A stretch of 64,000 nt of DNA. Source: Valencia hispanica. Lineage: Eukaryota; Chordata; Actinopteri; Cyprinodontiformes; Valenciidae. The stretch covers positions 50,386,286 through 50,450,285 of the forward strand of contig OY747702.1 of assembly GCA_963556495.2 (NCBI GenBank), in the 5' to 3' direction. This document shows, one piece after another, positions 3,198 to 12,548 of this stretch. The notes under the pieces were generated by a model. It ran no database searches. It worked only from the letters and a program-made list of their open reading frames with translations, and had not been told where the DNA came from. Every line of letters begins with the position of its first letter. Position 1 is the stretch's first letter. A program made the position numbers and the translations under genes.

Positions 3198-3358
3198 TCA
3201 GTAGAACCTCTTGTTTCTCTCCTGTCTCTTCTGGAAAACCACAGCTCCCACAACTGCGCACACGACAATTCCCAGCAGGGCACAGAGCAAGAGCAGGAAC
3301 ACCTTCCAACCTGTGAGGGGCGTACCACGGAAGTTTCCAGTTGGATCGTCAACGTTGT
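3198..3358 (-). CDS. lman2: LMAN2 coding exon 8: membrane anchor, KRFY tail and stop
   Basis: The acceptor is TCCACAG|ACAAC, phase 1. It encodes NVDDPTGNFRGTPLTGW, then a hydrophobic membrane helix containing FLLLLCALLGIVV and a short basic tail QKRQERNKRFY, with stop TGA at 3198-3200. Tails of this type carry ER exit and sorting signals in LMAN2-family receptors. Confidence 0.96.
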
Positions 3359-6300
3359 CTGTGGACCAAGAGGGGATATTATCAATTTCAACGCACCTTC
3401 TTAGTGCTGTCTTACTGTAAGTTTAAAACTCACTAATTTCATGCCATCACTGGTTTTACTTTTGTTTTTCATATTTTATCTATCGTTTTTGAGTTCACAC
3501 CAGAAATCCTTAACATGACAATTTTATTAAATTTTACTTTTAATTTCATTATCTGGATTGGTCTGGTCAGACGTTTCTATCCATAATGGTCATGAACATC
3601 ACTAATTTGGCTTTTAAACATTTAACAAAAGGTTTTTTATTTTAGGGTAAAGTGACTGTAGTAAATTCTATCTATTTTCAGCACGGTTAAGATCTGGGTT
3701 TTTGGAAAGCAGTTCTAGAACCTTAATGTCGGCCTGCTAATAAAAATGCTATACTAGAAGTCTATAATAAATACTGAAAGGGAGTGTTTGAGATCATTGT
3801 CATGTTTGAATGGCCAACTTTCAACCATCTGCACAGCTTTAAAGTGAAATTTAAGAATTTGGAACAAGTTTTCTTTAATTATATCATTTTGCGAGGTACC
3901 AATACTACATGTGACAATACTCAAATTTCCCTCAACATCAATACAAAGAAAAACACTTGTCATTTTCAATATCTCAGACAATTTTTGAAGCCATAGGGTT
4001 ATTTGTAAAAGATTATATTATTATATTGTTAATATCCGTTTAGTGTTATAAATATGGTTCTATATAAATGTGTAATAGGGAATTGAGCAGCCATTTAGTT
4101 CAAAACATAACTTAAGTGTTGCTTTCCTTTATAGCAAGGCAGTCAGAAGAGAGCACTTGCTAGAACTATTAATATCCTTGATTGAGGTATGTAACATTTA
4201 GTTGAACGGATCATTGGAAAACAGGTGTAAGCATTGATTTCTTTTTTTATTAAAACTGCTATGAAAGCTTTTTTCCCCCCTTTCTCGGAAATCCTAATCT
4301 ACCTTTGGGGGATTTGAAAAGGCTGACGCTAGGCTCAATTTTAGTCCAGTCTAAGTTCTCTTCTTCAGGGGTGTGGTCCACCATCAGCTGGTAGAGCTTC
4401 ATAGAGATGACATCATGGTTATCTAGAACAAATGAGTATGCATTGTTAAAGACTTTTTATAGCTCCAAAATATAAATACGCAATTTCAATCAAATGTATC
4501 CAGAATATAGTCATGGGAGTGCCACAACAATTTTTTGAAAGGTGAATTAAAGACTAATTTAAATCTTTGTTGCCATACTTCCCAGTTCTGACATTACCTG
4601 AGAGATCTCCAGTTGCTGCTGATGCACCAAAGAAATATCCAGTAGGGAGACGAACACCTCCAATGTCGATGCACTCTTTCCACTCATTTTTGTCGTCCAC
4701 GTCAACCATCACCTGCAGACAAACATGGGCTGTAAAATTAAATTACTATGGTATAAAAAAAAAAAATCAAAAAACAACCAAAGAAGTGGTTTTATGATTT
4801 TCCTCATGATGCAATGAGTACATTGGACACTTTTGGAACCCATAGAGATCAAAATGAAAAGCTGCTGTGGAGGATGTTTTAATGCAAGGAAACTGAGGCT
4901 CAGCTTGGGCATTAAACTATTATTCCCATGCGAGACTTTTACAAGTGCAAGGCTGCTTTCCGTGTTTAAAGAAAAGGTCATCATAAAATTATTCTGAAAA
5001 AAAAAATAATGTTTTCGTCTTATGAAACCGTTTGTTGACTTACAGTAAGAAACAGGCAAACTGCACAGTAATGACCTGGACACAATTAAGGACTCTGTAG
5101 AACTTGATTGTGTGCCGAGGAGGCATTCAGTCATTAGATTCGGGAGTGTTGGACCAGGGTCTGATCTAAAGTGGGAGTACATCTGTCTTTTAAGGACTGG
5201 AGTTGGAAGAATGGGTCATAATTCCTCCACGAGGATGAGAGAGAATTATATCAATCAATCAGATTTTATTTATAAAGCACTTTTCATACAAACATTGCAA
5301 CTCAAAGTGCTTTACAAATTAAAATCACCCCACATAAACCACATTCCCATGACTCCCCGACAGATTTAAAAGCATGATCACAATTATACCCTCCTTCCCC
5401 CAACCCAACTCCCAAGCACGCACACACTTAAGAGCAACAATAAAACGGACATTGTGCCGAGTACAGATGAGCCAGGTAAGGAAACGCCGTCAAAGAAGCC
5501 ATCTGCCCCAGCAGCAGCAGATCAACAGCAGCAGCTGAGGCACTGACACAGGGCGCCCAGAGGAGGCAAGGCAGAGACCCCAACCTCCACCAAGGTGCTA
5601 CCTGGAGAGCACCCAGGCAGCTATAGCCGACCGCCGCTCCCGAGACAGAGGGCTCCCTTAGAGGAAACACTGGAAGGAATATTAAAATAACAAGTTAGAA
5701 TATAAAAATAAACAGTGAATAACTATAAGATTAAGTAGTAAAACACTGATGAAGTTTAATCAGGTAAATATATACTCCTACAGAAGACAGTTAAGTATAT
5801 TAACTATCCAAGACTAAGTTATTTTTGTTGGCAAAATATCTCCTTCCCCTCCTGGTTAAGTTTAAGATCACTGTTGTGAAAACCAGAAGACTATTCCTGG
5901 AAAACCCTACAGAAACCCCCCACAGATTAAAGGCAGCCCAACAACCAAGCTACAATGCAAATGATCCAGCTTTGGGTAAAGAAAGCACAAGGTTTCACTA
6001 CTCACAGTCAGTCTTCCTCTGGAGTAGCGAATAGCGAGGTACGTGTCAAAGTCTCTGTTTCTGATGTCAGCTGAGCAGCCTCCCAGCTCTGACGAGCGAC
6101 CATCATTCCCATGATCATAATTCACTGTGCCATTGTTTACCATGGCCGAGATGTAAGGGAAGGACCGCTGGCGATTGGACAAATCGGGGAAAAAAACAAA
6201 AAAACAAAGAATCACTACAGCCAAAATAATTAAGAAAAATAAGAGACAAATAAATGCAAAATATGCATGTGTACATGAAAGAATCCAACATTCTAAGCAA

Positions 6301-9300
6301 CTATAAAACATGTTTTTGCAGCACTCAAAACTGATTTCAGCATGCAAAATCAAGCTAATGGTTTTAGATCCAATTACGTACCACATAGTCAAACCAAAAA
6401 GCAGCTGTTGCTTCAAATTAATCTTATTAGAAAAGCATTTCTTTATATAGTTTTTCATAGAGTTTGATAAAATTATATTAGCTAACTTTCAGTGCAAATT
6501 TACTTAGGTAAAATACACAATGAACTTATTGTGTATTTTAAATGCTGACATGCTCCAAAAATCTAACATGCTGTTTTACAATAAAGACACCAAACTCAGC
6601 ACTGAAACAAGACTAAGAGCATGCCGACAGCAACCACTCACATCCGTCGAATCATCATTAGAGTAAGTATCTATAAAAACTGCCAGCCCATGGAAGTGAG
6701 CATTGTTGGAAAACACAGGCCCTGCAAAGAAACAAGCAGATCAATCGACAGGAGCCACACACTGCACACTTACATCCATTCCATGGAGGTCGTTGCGGAA
6801 GGTGTCCAAAAAAATAGCCAGGCCATGAAACTGATCTTGGTTTCCAAACACAGGGCCTAGGATGGAGGTAGAGATGAGCCAAGACATGCGCAAACAACGA
6901 GAAACGATGTATGAACAGCAATTATGAGAAGAAGCTGAGACAATGGAAACAAACATCAGGATGTGATGGACTCACAATGGCAGCGAGAATGAGGCAATGA
7001 CATGATGGAAACAGACAGTTTGGATTTACATCTAAACTAATTATGTATCATTTATAGTCAAGTGTTTGTATTTTATCACAGTTGCAAACCCCAACTCTTT
7101 AATATTTAAGATTTTAGTTTCTACCTTCTCTATAACCCATTTTACTCACCCTAAACCATTTATGTTAGTAAAAAACACTTCAAGCTAAATTTTAACCCTT
7201 TAATTATGTTCCTAAAAACAAAGTTCAATCTAAACTGCTAAGATCAATATCTGCCTAATGACCGCTAGAGATAGGCTTTAGACCCTCATGGATTATGTAG
7301 CAACTCAACAGGTAAAAACAATAGCTGTGTTTCCACTAGACGAGTTCCTAGACATTTCTGGGAGGGGGGAATGTGACAGGAAAAACTGCACTGGCTCGGT
7401 CTTCTCAGCCGTTGTGTCTTCATACAAAATTGGCCCTGATCAGCGCCAAAAGGTGCCCACAGCAGCAGAGAATAACAAGAGATCGACAATGGAAGAAGCA
7501 GGGATGATTGCCGCGTTTCAGTTTGCTATGTTGGCATACACAACAATGATCTGTCCGCTTATCGTAGCTTTTCTTATTTTGTTTTCCTTCCATTCTGCTT
7601 CATCAGCAACTCTTCCAATTTCACAAATGTTTGGCAACCTCTGCTGATAACATGTCCCACTGAGTACAAACCAATCAGGGCCATTTCTGAGTACATACCC
7701 CAAGGCAGGTACGTATTTAGTTCTAGAAATGGCACAGAAAGTGGTGTTTTCTGGCCCGCTTCGCGAAATTGAGACACTCGCAAACCGAGAAGATTTCGTA
7801 AAATTCCACGGAAGCTCCATTAGTGGAAACGAGCCTAATGGATGGATGGATAAACACTTACTCTTTAACTATCCATGATAATTTATCATGCTCTAAATTA
7901 CAATTTAAAAGCCTTTTCTTAAGTTCTGAAAACGGTTTTTCCTACAATTTTAATGCTAATGCAAGTAATGCTATTAGGCATAAATAATTAGACTATGAAC
8001 TAAATGTATTACATGTAACCATAATTTTTTTTTCATGCTCAATGACTAATTTATTATTTCTAAAAGAAAAGTTAGCAGTCTGACAGTGTCAGTCCTACCA
8101 GACTTTCTTCTCCAAAACCACAACAGAAAAAAACAAACAATAAAAGCCACCAAATTGTATGTAATACGCAAAAATATGTTTGCACTTTGCAGGACAAAAA
8201 TAACTGTTGCTTTCTTAATTTCTTAGTTCATAAGAAAAACTGTGGATTTTGTGTACCGCTAAATCCAAACATGGTTACAACAAAGAAAAACAAAATAAAT
8301 AGCTTAACGGTGAGTTTCTTCTACAGGAGACCTCAACAGACACACCAAATGAGATTAAAAATGTACCTGGATGCAGTCTGTCCTTTGTGTACCAGATAGC
8401 AATACCGTCACCATGGAGATTCTTCTTTCCTGATCCGTGAACTTTAAACTGCACATGCATTTCCCAGTCCTTCAGGTAACAAGGCTGCAAGAAATTTATA
8501 TAAACACTGCACTGAGAACAAAAACTCAGATCTGACCATTCAATTACAATAAAATTGTTTTCACCAAGTTCCTTTAGAATACTCATGATAGACCTTTTAG
8601 TTTGAGCCAAAACCACCTCATGCTATGCAGACTGTGACCCCGACTGTTCAAAATATGAACATTTGAACTCATATTGTTATACACAAAGAATACGTTGTCT
8701 GAGTCTTTCAAATGTTAATCTTATTTTAGTCTTTTGCAAATTAAGATAGATTTTTAAAATAATCCATGACTATTTAACCTTAAATATACAGAATCTGTTA
8801 GACTCAAATTTAAATGTCTCTCTTATTGATCAGAGTCACATGGTAAAACAAATCATGCGAGTACTTAATTTCAGACAGCATCCATTAACATTTTTCTCAC
8901 CACAGTATTCCATATGGATCCCTGCTTGCTCTTCTCATCTGGAGTAAGTCGCACATATGAGCTCGTCACCAGCGTGCTTCCCCAGAAATCCCATTGATTG
9001 CCAACACCTTCAGAATAAATGTAGAAAACATAAATCAAAATAAGTCACTCCTGAAAGTTCACTCCAAAACAATAACATTTCTTTAGCCAGAAGCCAGAGC
9101 TTTTCAATTGACAAAGGTGTTTTTTAACCGGCTTGATTTTCAATGATATTACAGGCCGAACATAACTGCTTCCACAGCACTTTAATTTAAAGTTTTGACA
9201 ACATTTACGAATGAATCTAGATGGTTTTTAAACACAGACTTTACTTTGTATTCATGGAGTAATTTAACATCTACACTACTGACTTCAGTTTAACCTAAAA

Positions 9301-12300
9301 TGCTGAATTAGATCAATAAAACCTCCCTTGACAAATTAAACATGATTGTTACAGTAGCTTAGATGAGTTACAGAAAAAAAACCTACTTTTGTTTTTATTC
9401 AACTTGCACCAAACCTTGGTCAAGCTATAAAAAAGGAACAACACCACTTAAGCAATAATACCTTTGCCATACAGGACTGCAACAAATACAATACAAATAT
9501 TTTGTTTGATAAAAAAATAAAAATAAAATGACTGATTTAATAAATATTTAAAGTAGCAGATGTGATCAATTAAATATACAAACATGGGAAATATTTCTTG
9601 TCTAAAAAGCAATAAAAACAAAACAAAACAAATGATTTGGGTGTTATTCTATAACAGCACTTCTTTGTGCCTATAAAACAAACATTCTGTGTTTGAACTG
9701 CATTGTCTGACACGCATGCACACTAGATCCTTGCAGTGGCTTTATGCACCCACAGTAAATGACACAAGTCAGTTTTAAAGTTGCATTTAATGCTCAGCAA
9801 CCTCACTCTATAGGCTCCTGTTTCAAGTATATGCCAGAAATTCATCACAATCAGGATTAAACAAACAGATCTTCTCGATGGTAAAGTTACAAGCAGACAG
9901 TAAAGCATATTAAAGACAGAATTAGCATTGTTGTATTTTTATATCTATTTTTGTGTGATGTGGTTGTGTAATTCTTAGTTCACAATGTTTGTTTTGTTTT
10001 GTCGATGTTCCTTTTTCGTGTTTTGTTTTATTTTCCCCCCCTCTGTCTGCCGTTCTGTGGGTATGGAGGCAGACTTCAATGTCTTCCTGTGTTTTCTTTG
10101 TTCCCCTTCCTCTCGTATTTTCAACTCACCCTCTCTCTTGACTTTTTGTTTCCTACCTCTCTTCTTCATCTTCCTTCTTCTTAATTTTCCGTCTCCATAA
10201 CATCAGGAAATAAAAACCCCAACAATTCATTATAAAGATTATTCACACATATATCAAGTGGAGGACTATAGCAAAAGCTGTACTGCTCCGCTTGTGAAAG
10301 TAAATCTGTTGGGCTTCTACTTGGTACTCAGACACCAATTCTGAGCTCCACACTGCCAAACAGGACACGAAAAAAAAAAAAGACAGAATTAGCACAATAA
10401 AATACAAATATATGAAATATACATCAAAAGACGTTGTATATATCCCAACCTTTTTTAAATAAAAACAGCATTACAACAATAAATCATAAATGAATTACAA
10501 CTGGTCTGGTTTTTGGACAGATTTAGCTAACATACAGTAATTTGAAGTATAAAATAAAGATCTACAGATGTGCTAGTGTAGAGTCTCAGTCATCCAGGAT
10601 GTGACAATCCTGAGTGCTTCAGCAGAAGACAACTAGACTTCTTCTCCTGTTTGTTGACGAAGTTTGATCTAAAGACACCTTTTGTATAAGAGGTGAGATG
10701 TAAAAAAATAAAATAAAAAGTAGTCCACTTCCCTTCTTTTTAAGCACATAGGGTCCACACATGTACACAAGTAGGTAGGACTAAAAAGCTTAAAACTGTA
10801 TTGGGTGAAAACTTTAAATACATAGCTAATTTTCTTTTAGATATGTTTGAAGCTGAAGAAGGAGAAAAATGACTATCTTTAAATTCAAGTTTGAGTCAAC
10901 AGGACAATATACTTTGTTTTGGTCACCTTTTCTCTCATCATACACACCTGTGGCACAAAGATAAGGGGCCAGTCAAATCACAGTCTAGCTGCCAGCTTAG
11001 CTCAAATGATAAAGTTGACGGAATAAAATGCATTGATATTTTCAATTAAGTACTGTTCAGTATGAACAAATATTTTGTCGAGAAATATTCTGTTGGTGAA
11101 GAGAGAGCCGAGTCTTAGGGTGAAGCTCTTAATTTACCGGTCGATCTACGTTCCTACCCTCATCTATGGTCACGAACTCTGGGTGTTGATCGAAAGAACG
11201 AGATCACGGATACAAGCGGCTGAAATGAGTTTCCTCCGCAGGATGTCTGGGCTCTCCCTTAGACATAGGGTGAGAAGCTCAGTCATCCGGAGGGGGCTCA
11301 GAGTAGAGCCGCTGCTCCTCCACATCGAGAGGAGTCAGTTGAGGTGGCTCGGGCATCTGGTCAGGATGCCTCCTGGACGCCTCCCTGCTGAGGTGTTCAA
11401 GGCACCTCTAACTGGTAGGAGGCCCAGGGGAAGGCCCAGGACACGCTGGAGGCACTATGTTTCTCGGCTGGCCTGGGAACACCTTGGGAATCCCCCTGAG
11501 GAGCTGGAACAAGTGGCTGGGGAGAGGGAAGTCTGGGTCTCTTTGCTTAAGCTGCTGCCCCCGCGACCCGACCCCGGATAAGCGGAAGAAGATGGATGGA
11601 TGGATGGAATATTCTGTTGCGTCTCTTTGTTTTACAATATCTAGGCCAAAAAAACTGGCTATCGAGTAATTTTGTAGGTAGTTTTAGCATTATCCAGCAA
11701 CAACAACAACAAAAAATCACATAATAAAATGTGAACAAAAATGTGAGGTTTTTTTTTGGTACTCTAATCAAGAGAATTTTGTTTTTTTGGATTAAGACAA
11801 CATTTTGCTTTGGTAATCTTACACTATTTTGCCAACCTGTAGACCTCACAGGAGACTGTGCTTCAGACAAGCTGATAGAAAAAAAAAACATTGTATCCAA
11901 CAGCCATTACACACCATCCTATGACTATTATACGCCCTTTACCCGCACTACTTTTTAGATTAACCTTTGCATAACCACAGTATATGTCGTTATTTTCTCT
12001 TCAGGCTGCTGTATTTCTATCCATTTAAGCCGACATATGTGACTTTAAATCCTCTACATACCATCTGCCAGAAACAAGACTGCATTTCTACAGGGTCTGA
12101 CGTGCTATGATTTAAGTCTATGTCTAGTAAGTTCATTAAAAAGTAAAAAACTGTAAACCTGCTGAACATATTTGAATTGGGCTACATATAACACGAGTTT
12201 CTTCGTGTTGTGGTCTGCTGTTTCGTGTTTTGTTATTTTGACGTTTCTAAGTGTTTATCTTCTACCTTACAATTTGACACAGCCATGGTCGATGTAACAT

Positions 12301-12548
12301 GTTAGTACTGCCATAATAATGTCCATTTCGGCAATTGAGATAACTGGAAACCTTCTGAAACGCGGTGGGAGAAAGAAAAAGTCCTGCGATCTTCCGGTGG
12401 CTAGCTCCTTACCTTGGTAAGGCTTCGTCAGAGAATGCTCCCTTTTCAGATGTTCTGCGTTTCCGTCCGTGATATCGCAACCAACCAGGCAGCCCTCCAC
12501 CAGCAAGAGGAGAAATGTTGAGTTCAGAAATGTTTTAAATCCGCTCAT
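3198..12548 (-). CDS. lman2: LMAN2 (VIP36) L-type lectin cargo receptor, eight coding positions with exon 4 duplicated
   Basis: Type I membrane lectin of the ER, ERGIC and Golgi that binds high-mannose glycans on cargo glycoproteins. The coding sequence joins 12548-12413, 9007-8901, 8484-8367, one exon 4 (6856-6774 or 6721-6642), 6167-6006, 4712-4598, 4422-4303 and 3358-3198. Every junction is GT-AG and all phases agree. The product is about 333 residues with exon 4a or 332 with 4b; human LMAN2 is 356. A signal peptide covers about residues 1-24, then the mature start DITDGN, the lectin domain to about residue 270, a stalk, a membrane helix at about 300-322 and a cytoplasmic tail ending KRFY. 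From family knowledge, sugar and calcium contacts are visible: Ser in DEKSK, Asp in HGDG, DT(F/Y)xN in exon 4, YDH in exon 5 and TGDLSDNHD at the exon 6/7 join. The tail QERNKRFY and the DITDGN start favour LMAN2 over its paralogue LMAN2L. The transcript runs right to left and stands alone here. Confidence 0.95.
4303..4422 (-). CDS. lman2: LMAN2 coding exon 7: lectin end and stalk
   Basis: 120 bases, acceptor TTCTAG|AT and donor AAAG|GTAGAT, phase 1 at both ends. It encodes the remainder of DNHDVISMKLYQLMV, then DHTPEEENLDWTKIEPSV and FKSPK, matching the end of the lectin fold and the start of the lumenal stalk. Confidence 0.95.
4598..4712 (-). CDS. lman2: LMAN2 coding exon 6: end of lectin domain
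   Basis: 115 bases, acceptor CTGCAG|GTG and donor TCAG|GTAATG, phase 0 in and phase 1 out. It encodes VMVDVDDKNEWKECIDI, GGVRLPTGYFFGASAATGDLS. The Gly-Asp-Leu of TGDLS is part of the family carbohydrate pocket. Confidence 0.95.
5249..5770 (-). mobile_element. 5'-truncated LINE C 3' end in LMAN2 intron 5
   Basis: The block matches, in inverted orientation, the 3' untranslated end of LINE C at about 48610-49139. Shared parts include the GC-rich stretch around 5500-5660 and the 3' end AAGTGCTTTACAAAT. The tail in this copy is a short (ATTG)n-type run near 5252-5262. It lies in the sense direction of LMAN2 and has no coding capacity. Confidence 0.8.
6006..6167 (-). CDS. lman2: LMAN2 coding exon 5: lectin domain with YDH motif
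   Basis: 162 bases, exactly 54 codons, phase 0 at both ends. The acceptor is CGCCAG|CGG and the donor ACT|GTGAGT. It encodes RSFPYISAMVNNGTV, NYDHGNDGR, ELGGCSADIRNRDFDTYLAI and RYSRGRLT. The His of YDH is a family sugar contact and the nearby Asp of NDGR is the fourth calcium ligand. It accepts either exon 4 without changing frame. Confidence 0.95.
6642..6721 (-). CDS. lman2: LMAN2 exon 4b, second of two tandem alternative exons
   Basis: 80 bases. The acceptor is a strong CTTGTTTCTTTGCAG and the donor is GAT|GTGAGT, with the same phases as 4a. It encodes GPVFSNNAHFHGLAVF, then IDTYSND and DSTD, joining in frame to exon 5. The metal-binding pattern Asp-x-Tyr-x-Asn is intact, and DTYSNDDSTD resembles human DTYPNDETTE more than exon 4a does. 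It has no stop, no frameshift and clean splice sites, so it looks selected rather than a dead copy. Only 52 bases (6722-6773) separate it from exon 4a. Confidence 0.88.
6774..6856 (-). CDS. lman2: LMAN2 exon 4a, first of two tandem alternative exons
   Basis: 83 bases. The acceptor has a pyrimidine-rich tract ending ATCCTAG and the donor is GAT|GTAAGT, a full consensus. It encodes GPVFGNQDQFHGLAIF, then LDTFRND and LHGMD, joining in frame to RSFPYIS of exon 5. Asp138, Phe140 and Asn142 sit at the calcium-ligand positions known in mammalian VIP36 (Asp162, Tyr164, Asn166); the Asn also contacts mannose. The second half is one residue longer than human LMAN2 and quite different from exon 4b. Confidence 0.92.
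7322..7837. mobile_element. Non-autonomous inverted-repeat DNA transposon in LMAN2 intron 3
   Basis: The left end TAGCTGTGTTTCCACTA and the reverse complement of the right end TAGGCTCGTTTCCACTA match at 14 of 17 positions, about 515 bases apart. The interior is more GC-rich than the flanks and has an open stretch from 7490 with no recognised transposase motif. The ends recall fish PIF/Harbinger-type elements, but the target duplication is not clear, so the superfamily is left open. Confidence 0.6.
8367..8484 (-). CDS. lman2: LMAN2 coding exon 3: lectin core with GDG motif
   Basis: 118 bases, acceptor TTGCAG|CCTTG and donor CCAG|GTACAT, phase 0 in and phase 1 out. It encodes residues 82-120 and one base of Gly121. 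PCYLKDWEMHV, FKVHG, KKNLHGDGIAIWYTKDR and LHP are readable. The Asp of HGDG is a sugar-binding residue in the family. Because it ends in phase 1, the next exon must have a length of 2 modulo 3, which both exon 4 copies satisfy. Confidence 0.95.
8901..9007 (-). CDS. lman2: LMAN2 coding exon 2: start of lectin domain
   Basis: 107 bases, acceptor GAAG|GTGTT and donor GTG|GTGAGA, phase 1 in and phase 0 out. It encodes residues 46-81, including WDFWGST, SYVRLTPDEKSK and GSIWN. The serine of DEKSK corresponds to the sugar-contacting serine reported for mammalian VIP36. Confidence 0.93.
11096..11607 (+). mobile_element. Rex3/RTE-like LINE 3' fragment in LMAN2 intron 1
   Basis: A 5'-truncated LINE encoding the C-terminal part of a reverse-transcriptase protein, open at 11096-11581. 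Readable motifs are PTLIYGHELWV, RIQAAEMSFLRR, RSQLRWLGHL and LLPPRPDPG, then stop and a short GATG-repeat tail. A perfect 12-bp duplication AATATTCTGTTG flanks it at 11084-11095 and 11608-11619, proving insertion by target-primed reverse transcription. It lies antisense to LMAN2. Clade assignment rests on the GATG tail and protein motifs from memory. Confidence 0.85.
12413..12548 (-). CDS. lman2: LMAN2 coding exon 1: start codon and signal peptide
   Basis: Encodes residues 1-45 plus the first base of Gly46. The ATG at 12548-12546 opens MSGFK and a leucine-rich hydrophobic stretch typical of a signal peptide. The mature segment DITDGN and then EHLKREHSL and KPYQ follow, close to mammalian LMAN2. 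The donor is CAAG|GTAAGG, phase 1. No other ATG upstream gives a better signal peptide. The first ~100 bases upstream (12549-12650) are probably 5' UTR and promoter, but no TATA box or clear start site is visible. Confidence 0.93.

Follow-up and report, generated by a model that had tools for sequence, protein, structure and literature searches.

What does a single gene do with two tandem versions of one exon, each of which completes the same reading frame? This question is raised by LMAN2 (VIP36) in the window, i.e., the whole 64-kb stretch of Valencia hispanica DNA that was analyzed. Running from 12548 to 3198 on the minus strand, the gene has coding exons at eight positions, and at one of these there are two copies. 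The VIP36 protein, a cargo receptor, recognizes the sugars of glycoproteins that travel through the secretory pathway, and we consider it likely, judging from sequence comparisons, that the two versions (4a and 4b) form a mutually exclusive pair that predates the split between sturgeons and teleosts and switches the glycan binding of the receptor. The coding exons are located as follows.

12413 to 12548, minus strand: LMAN2 exon 1, coding part
8901 to 9007, minus strand: LMAN2 exon 2
8367 to 8484, minus strand: LMAN2 exon 3, with HGDG and Asp131
6774 to 6856, minus strand: LMAN2 exon 4a, 83 nt, GPVFGNQDQFHGLAIFLDTFRNDLHGMD, the Phe version of Loop 1
6722 to 6773, minus strand: intron separating 4a from 4b, 52 nt
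6642 to 6721, minus strand: LMAN2 exon 4b, 80 nt, GPVFSNNAHFHGLAVFIDTYSNDDSTD, the Tyr version of Loop 1
6006 to 6167, minus strand: LMAN2 exon 5
4598 to 4712, minus strand: LMAN2 exon 6, with GDLS and Asp261, common to both isoforms
4303 to 4422, minus strand: LMAN2 exon 7
3198 to 3358, minus strand: LMAN2 exon 8, coding part, with KRFY at its end

The original prediction of two tandem versions of exon 4, 83 and 80 nt long, is borne out, and its outer boundaries, 6642 and 6856, are exact. As had also been claimed, both versions are flanked by AG/GT splice sites, with the donors GAT/GTAAGT (4a) and GAT/GTGAGT (4b) judged by consensus and unscored, and both join exon 3 to exon 5 in the same entry and exit phases; exon 3 ends one base into a codon, and exon 5 starts in phase 0. 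The frame is full both in isoform A (with 4a; 333 amino acids) and in isoform B (with 4b; 332 amino acids), while a stop comes after 164 amino acids when 4a and 4b are joined and after 137 when neither is used. The claim that the two peptides differ in about half of their residues was somewhat too high: 16 of the 27 aligned residues are identical, and together with a one-residue length difference this puts the divergence at about 40%. Among the 27 aligned codons, eight are identical, eight synonymous, and 11 changed. Furthermore, a degenerate pattern of the exon core has two matches in the 64-kb window, precisely 4a and 4b; shuffles gave a chance expectation of 0.00 for perfect matches and 0.06 when three mismatches were tolerated. 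The anatomy and the frame of the pair are thus matters of observation, and 4a/4b is, by sequence, a tandem duplicate with matching phases of which both copies are conserved.

Three protein searches gave 158 distinct proteins, one search supplying the best 120 of 1102 matches and the other two all of their matches (70 and 18); the main search was clustered at 90% identity, and isoforms of one species may share a cluster. The assignment of the gene to LMAN2 agrees with the top three matches, all of them fish VIP36 (95, 92, and 80% identity), the closest proteins among the best 120 of 1102 matches being those of Poecilia formosa (95%) and Girardinichthys (92%). The first 28 rows of this search (again the best 120 of 1102 matches) span 71–95% identity and, apart from hypothetical models and one nameless entry, are labeled VIP36 or “mannose-binding 2,” whereas LMAN2L-type proteins (YPNEEK) among the matches listed share 54–57% identity with the window protein. 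The solved lectin domain of VIP36 matches the window protein with an E value of 8.5e-137; isoform B scores 459 bits against this domain and 154 bits against ERGIC-53. Both isoforms contain the legume-like lectin domain PF03388 (297.6 and 294.2 bits; cut-off, 24), and exon 8 encodes a hydrophobic segment and then QERNKRFY, as in a type I membrane protein with a C-terminal KRFY-type signal; in the model of the Labrus protein, a helix is predicted at 301–332.

Two features elsewhere in the gene may be recorded here. Exon 2 starts with GVGNQWDF (8984–9007, minus strand), four residues shorter than in several fish VIP36 proteins such as P0003 (GVGSSPTSQWDF), and the exon 2 start of Gouania P0130 is likewise short (GVGSQWDF). 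In intron 1, the stretch at about 11100–11600 of the window resembles, by eye, what we take to be a fragment of a fish non-LTR retrotransposon.

VIP36 numbering was fitted to a primate VIP36 of 356 amino acids, with Asp131, Asp162, His190, and Asp261 falling in the expected places; we take Asp162 to be a Ca2+ ligand, and Asp131 and His190 presumably have roles in the sugar site. Exon 4 corresponds to VIP36 residues 145–171, including Asp162, residue 164, and Asn166 (the equivalent of Asn156 in ERGIC-53), and encodes a core strand together with a stretch aligned to Loop 1 (155–161) of ERGIC-53. According to the available part of PMC3912170, Loop 1 (155–161) is the Ca2+-binding loop of the ERGIC-53 carbohydrate site, Asn156 of ERGIC-53 binds mannose, and Tyr164 of VIP36 hydrogen-bonds Man(4); the change from Tyr164 and Asp261 in VIP36 to Phe154 and Gly252 in ERGIC-53 explains the higher affinity of VIP36 (PMC3912170). 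This tyrosine is among the residues at which the two exons differ.

6798 to 6800, minus strand: codon TTC (Phe), VIP36 position 164 in exon 4a
6663 to 6665, minus strand: codon TAC (Tyr), VIP36 position 164 in exon 4b

By using the core pattern DT[Y/F]xN, 163 exon-4 segments were extracted from the 158 proteins, six of which gave none and 11 of which gave two, and the 4a type was called by the tail (x-G-M/V/T), independently of residue 164. Among the matches listed, 34 of the 163 segments were of the 4a type and 129 of another type; position 164 was Phe in 34/34 of the former and Tyr in 129/129 of the latter. When the pattern was relaxed to admit any residue at position 164, the 158 proteins gave 129 Tyr and 36 Phe and nothing besides, the two extra Phe being probably the shortened 4a segments of eels, which read DTFRP and DTFRS. 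In terms of Tyr164 as a sign of VIP36 membership, therefore, 4b carries the residue and 4a lacks it in every case; nonetheless, Asp131, Asp162, Asn166, His190, and Asp261 are aligned in both isoforms, and 4a is, as far as sequence can tell, a variant site with no loss of the gene's membership in the VIP36 family.

Since the swap alters the Ca2+/sugar loop, LMAN2 probably encodes two receptors that prefer different sugars. With 4b, which has Tyr164 as in mammalian VIP36, the product would be the classic high-affinity VIP36; with 4a, which has Phe as in ERGIC-53 at the D1-arm site and a loop (RNDLHGMD) one residue longer than that of 4b, glycan binding would be altered, probably toward weaker or broader, and a single gene would thereby acquire two cargo preferences. 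The resemblance of 4a to ERGIC-53 would be only half, because Asp261, the other key residue, is encoded in the shared exon 6. Fold models were built from stand-ins for the window proteins, Labrus P0005 for 4a (mean pLDDT, 75.7) and Girardinichthys P0002 for 4b (79.5). In a PDB search, the best match of the Labrus 4a model was the Ca2+/mannose-bound crystal of VIP36, 2dur (TM score of 0.88 by target length), and the 4a fold is considered to be kept on account of this match, the detail of the loop being beyond the model.

Alternatively, the pair might be exclusive while sugar binding is unchanged, with the swap tuning folding, stability, the response to Ca2+ or pH, or a partner of Loop 1; we regard this as unlikely, albeit as deserving attention. 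Indeed, Asp162 and Asn166 are kept in both 4a and 4b, and both versions should therefore, as judged from these residues, bind Ca2+ and mannose; in addition, the two exons differ across the strand and in the GNQDQ/SNNAH turn, away from position 164. The exceptionless split between Phe and Tyr falls, however, on a ligand contact as given in the available part of PMC3912170. A change in glycan binding by the exon swap, which we infer from this site, is hence the best-supported reading.

This reading also supposes that each transcript takes one of 4a and 4b, and mutual exclusion is likely, probably enforced through the short intron between the exons and through the reading frame. The relevant elements of the introns are the following.

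6740 to 6744, minus strand: TTGAT, the lone branch-point-like pentamer of the 52-nt intron (consensus match only)
6549 to 6624, minus strand: three GCATG (RBFOX-core-like), at +18, +71, and +89 downstream of the 4b donor
6341 to 6346, minus strand: TGCATG in the intron after 4b

The candidate branch-point A is nucleotide 33 from the donor and lies 19 nt from the intron end. A steric limit of <50 nt is given in the accessible parts of PMC7969005 and PMC5740500, and splicing of 4a to 4b would be hindered because the branch point is 33 nt from the donor, less than the approximately 50 nt for the U1 and U2 snRNPs. It would be hindered also because the use of both exons, or of neither, shifts the frame, as inferred from the sequence. 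Introns of about 52 nt can sometimes be spliced. Elsewhere, the implied length of the intervening intron is 52 nt in six contigs and 55 nt in Brachyistius, although the count for 52 nt is biased because open reading frames that read through show the intron length only when the frame is kept; our own count from the sequence of P0134 is about 66 nt. Translation of the intron ends gave similar residues across these six contigs, with LISASI before 4a in six of six and VS, further on Q/R-H-A-V, after 4b in five of six; as far as translations can show, this suggests conserved splicing signals.

The 474-nt intron 4 after 4b contains four GCATG against a shuffle mean of 0.86 (P = 0.011), but intron 2 also has an excess (two versus 0.30; P = 0.034), and the nominal P of 0.0005 in shuffles for three GCATG within 120 nt of the 4b donor applies to a distance chosen post hoc. 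Eight motifs were scanned in three introns, and GCATG alone was shuffle-tested, in seven introns. The enrichment is thus a speculative, post hoc lead and no result. RBFOX proteins favor an exon when bound downstream of it, and 4b would then, speculatively, be a regulated choice; through RBFOX-like sites after 4b, the selection of 4a or 4b may be tissue-specific.

Labels of database records also touch upon usage. Ten fish records of the 4b type are labeled X2 (P0001, P0002, P0006, P0007, P0011, P0012, P0017, P0022, P0090, and P0101) and two of the 4a type isoform X1 (P0013 and P0016), while P0003 (X1) has both exons and P0026 (Latimeria, X1) is of the 4b type. These labels are weak evidence of use because X2 is found also on tetrapod records without 4a, e.g., Hylobates P0036 and Apteryx P0074.

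Some gene models might be taken to mean that 4a and 4b are used jointly or as cassettes, a donor at +4 or retention of the intron giving a doubled segment. The models P0023, P0025, and P0072 join 4a to 4b in frame via one extra codon, and a donor 4 nt downstream would, by reading of the sequence, allow the same join in the window; the intron is translated as coding sequence in P0003 (Brachyistius, isoform X1), and in the eel models P0008 and P0010 a shortened 4a is fused to 4b. In the window, however, the retained intron has an in-frame TGA and the proper 4a–4b join shifts the frame, a protein with two copies of the strand and the Ca2+ loop would fold with difficulty, and such models look like the attempts of gene finders to fit both exons. 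Joint or cassette use is thus very unlikely, and the use of one exon per transcript is probable.

How old, then, is the pair? Species names are attached to 25 of the 34 records of the 4a type and represent 24 species, all of them ray-finned fishes including Amia calva, two sturgeons, and others up to percomorphs; the other nine are contigs. Among the matches listed, no 4a was present in the retrieved proteins of tetrapods, coelacanth, lungfish, sharks, lamprey, hagfish, or invertebrates, and this absence outside ray-finned fishes is to be read as absence from those matches because the sampling is limited to them. The bichir protein (P0022, labeled isoform X2) is of the 4b type, which is also the type of exon 4 in the retrieved LMAN2 proteins of tetrapods, coelacanth, and sharks. 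Both exons are present, in the order 4a–4b, in 11 records, which include Acipenser ruthenus, Brachyistius, Caranx, Menidia, and Danionella. The dating of the duplication across fishes and tetrapods, which the original prediction had proposed, was thus carried out on proteins and places the pair before teleosts: the record of A. ruthenus holds both exons, and the pair therefore predates the sturgeon–teleost split. That split is about 350 million years old or more. A tandem duplication of exon 4 would accordingly have occurred before sturgeons and teleosts diverged, and the pair is, from its sequences, real and ancient.

Conservation of both types is observed throughout this range. The sequence DTFRN is found in 24/24 of the named 4a species, and the tail GMD shows little variation, with Oreochromis P0037 (ending LDGTA) as the main exception. 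Neither exon shows an internal stop in these sequences, although protein records would not reveal one. Between the window and A. ruthenus, 4a is identical at 20 of 28 residues and 4b at 15 of 27, and 4a is thus not decaying. The expectation of the original prediction that close relatives would carry no disabling change also held at the protein level, with no difference from the window in the 4b of Poecilia formosa and Girardinichthys or in the 4a of Xenotaenia. With both exons intact and with consensus splice sites, their peptides unchanged in these livebearer and goodeid relatives, and both types conserved from sturgeon to percomorphs, it is scarcely credible that one of the exons is a silent relic left unspliced in Valencia hispanica.

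A date earlier than that of the sturgeon–teleost ancestor was examined with a tree of 28 columns and 48 exon-4 segments, chosen from those retrieved and including one read from L011. All 14 segments of the 4a type group together (ultrafast bootstrap of 94 on the separating branch), while topology tests rejected neither a duplication in ray-finned fishes (AU p = 0.313) nor one before jawed vertebrates (p = 0.406), and the age given above is a minimum only for this reason. Early 4a sequences share the 28-residue length and the FVGLG core with LMAN2L, which is a hint of a duplication older than all jawed vertebrates; the 27-residue length ties 4b to exon 4 of other jawed vertebrates. It had been proposed that each copy keeps different ancestral features, and this stands in part: 4b has the DTYxND..D end and the 27-residue length of other jawed-vertebrate LMAN2, and 4a has GPVFG and the 28-residue length of the LMAN2L, lamprey, and hagfish relatives. 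A more far-reaching version, which we find possible yet somewhat short of probable, is that in ray-finned fishes the splice choice toggles LMAN2 between a VIP36-type and an ERGIC-53-like site, a switch of about 350 million years that tetrapods have lost or never had.

The exon-4 sequences of lamprey and hagfish were considered as a second case of the duplication and dropped; the proteins differ all along their length and were taken as products of separate genes. The VIP36-like proteins of two lamprey species (P0091 and P0093) differ throughout, which suggests that lampreys have more than one VIP36-like gene. These two proteins and that of hagfish (P0099) all have Tyr at position 164.

Mutually exclusive duplicated exons are a well-known kind, and both versions of the present exon can already be found among the predicted VIP36 entries of protein databases. 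VIP36 of the channel catfish, likewise a fish VIP36, is said in the review PMC3509574 to have been cloned and described by Zhang et al. in 2012. In accord with the original prediction, no published duplicate exon of LMAN2/VIP36 was found in our literature search, most subscription papers being outside it. In the portions available, PMC9830730 mentions LMAN2 (expression in pig) and mutually exclusive exons (as a splicing category) without connecting them, and fish papers naming VIP36 (PMC3509574 and PMC12470603) treat its cloning, expression, or function and say nothing of versions of an exon; LMAN is absent from the main text, as far as available, of two large surveys of duplicated or mutually exclusive exons in human (one being PMC5740500). 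The LMAN2 case and the swap at its ligand site hence appear to be undescribed in the literature searched. If the exon choice alters the sugar site, fishes would offer a built-in experiment on Tyr164 and Loop 1, the two states having coexisted in a single gene since the sturgeon–teleost ancestor, and a comparison of the isoforms would directly test which cargo depends on residue 164. Mammals may not offer such a comparison because none of the retrieved tetrapod proteins has 4a.

Among known systems, the mutually exclusive exons of alpha-tropomyosin were reportedly shown by Smith and Nadal-Ginard in 1989 to owe their exclusion to the location of the lariat branch point. In that case the intron is longer, with its branch point remote from the acceptor; the protein is a different one, and the whole intron of LMAN2 is 52 nt. 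ERGIC-53 (LMAN1) shares with exon 4a a Phe where VIP36 has Tyr164, but is a separate gene that, in the available part of PMC3912170, has Gly in place of Asp261 and MCFD2 as a partner, while 4a proteins keep Asp261. On C20 of the same genome, a gene that by eye resembles LMAN1 encodes VFFDSFDND, likewise with Phe, and inspection of 1.4 kb there showed no second exon copy. The LMAN2L (VIPL) copy on C20 has a single exon 4 (GPVFGNMDNFTGLGVFVDTYPNEEKHIE) in the stretch read (L011). After a 112-nt gap, however, it has a 33-nt in-frame exon-like stretch with AG/GT sites (L011, 6161–6193; AQKKRYTPRTQ) at the same exon 4/5 boundary, by Loop 1, which would make an 11-residue insert and not an exchange. 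Human LMAN2L has an 11-residue insert of such a kind, and none was seen in the LMAN2L-type proteins examined. In a second LMAN2L-like copy (C6), exons 3 and 5 are about 11.6 kb apart, and a degenerate pattern allowing three mismatches at most detected no exon 4 in L009 or L010.

The closest parallel is OGDH, whose exons 4a and 4b are, in the available part of PMC7969005, ancient duplicated mutually exclusive exons, as those of LMAN2 probably are. There, the intron between the two exons has its branch point close to the donor, which enforces exclusion and for which LMAN2 has a like candidate, and the swap alters a Ca2+-binding stretch, as is proposed for LMAN2 (PMC7969005). OGDH is, by the same partial text, a mitochondrial enzyme with a Ca2+-insensitive 4a form and its pair is present in human, whereas both versions of LMAN2 keep the Ca2+ loop and 4a was retrieved, among the matches listed, from ray-finned fishes only. 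Unlike the OGDH pair, furthermore, 4a and 4b of LMAN2 differ at a residue that contacts sugar. If our reading is true, the known exon swaps by which Ca2+ sites are tuned, OGDH among them, would gain a case of glycan binding.
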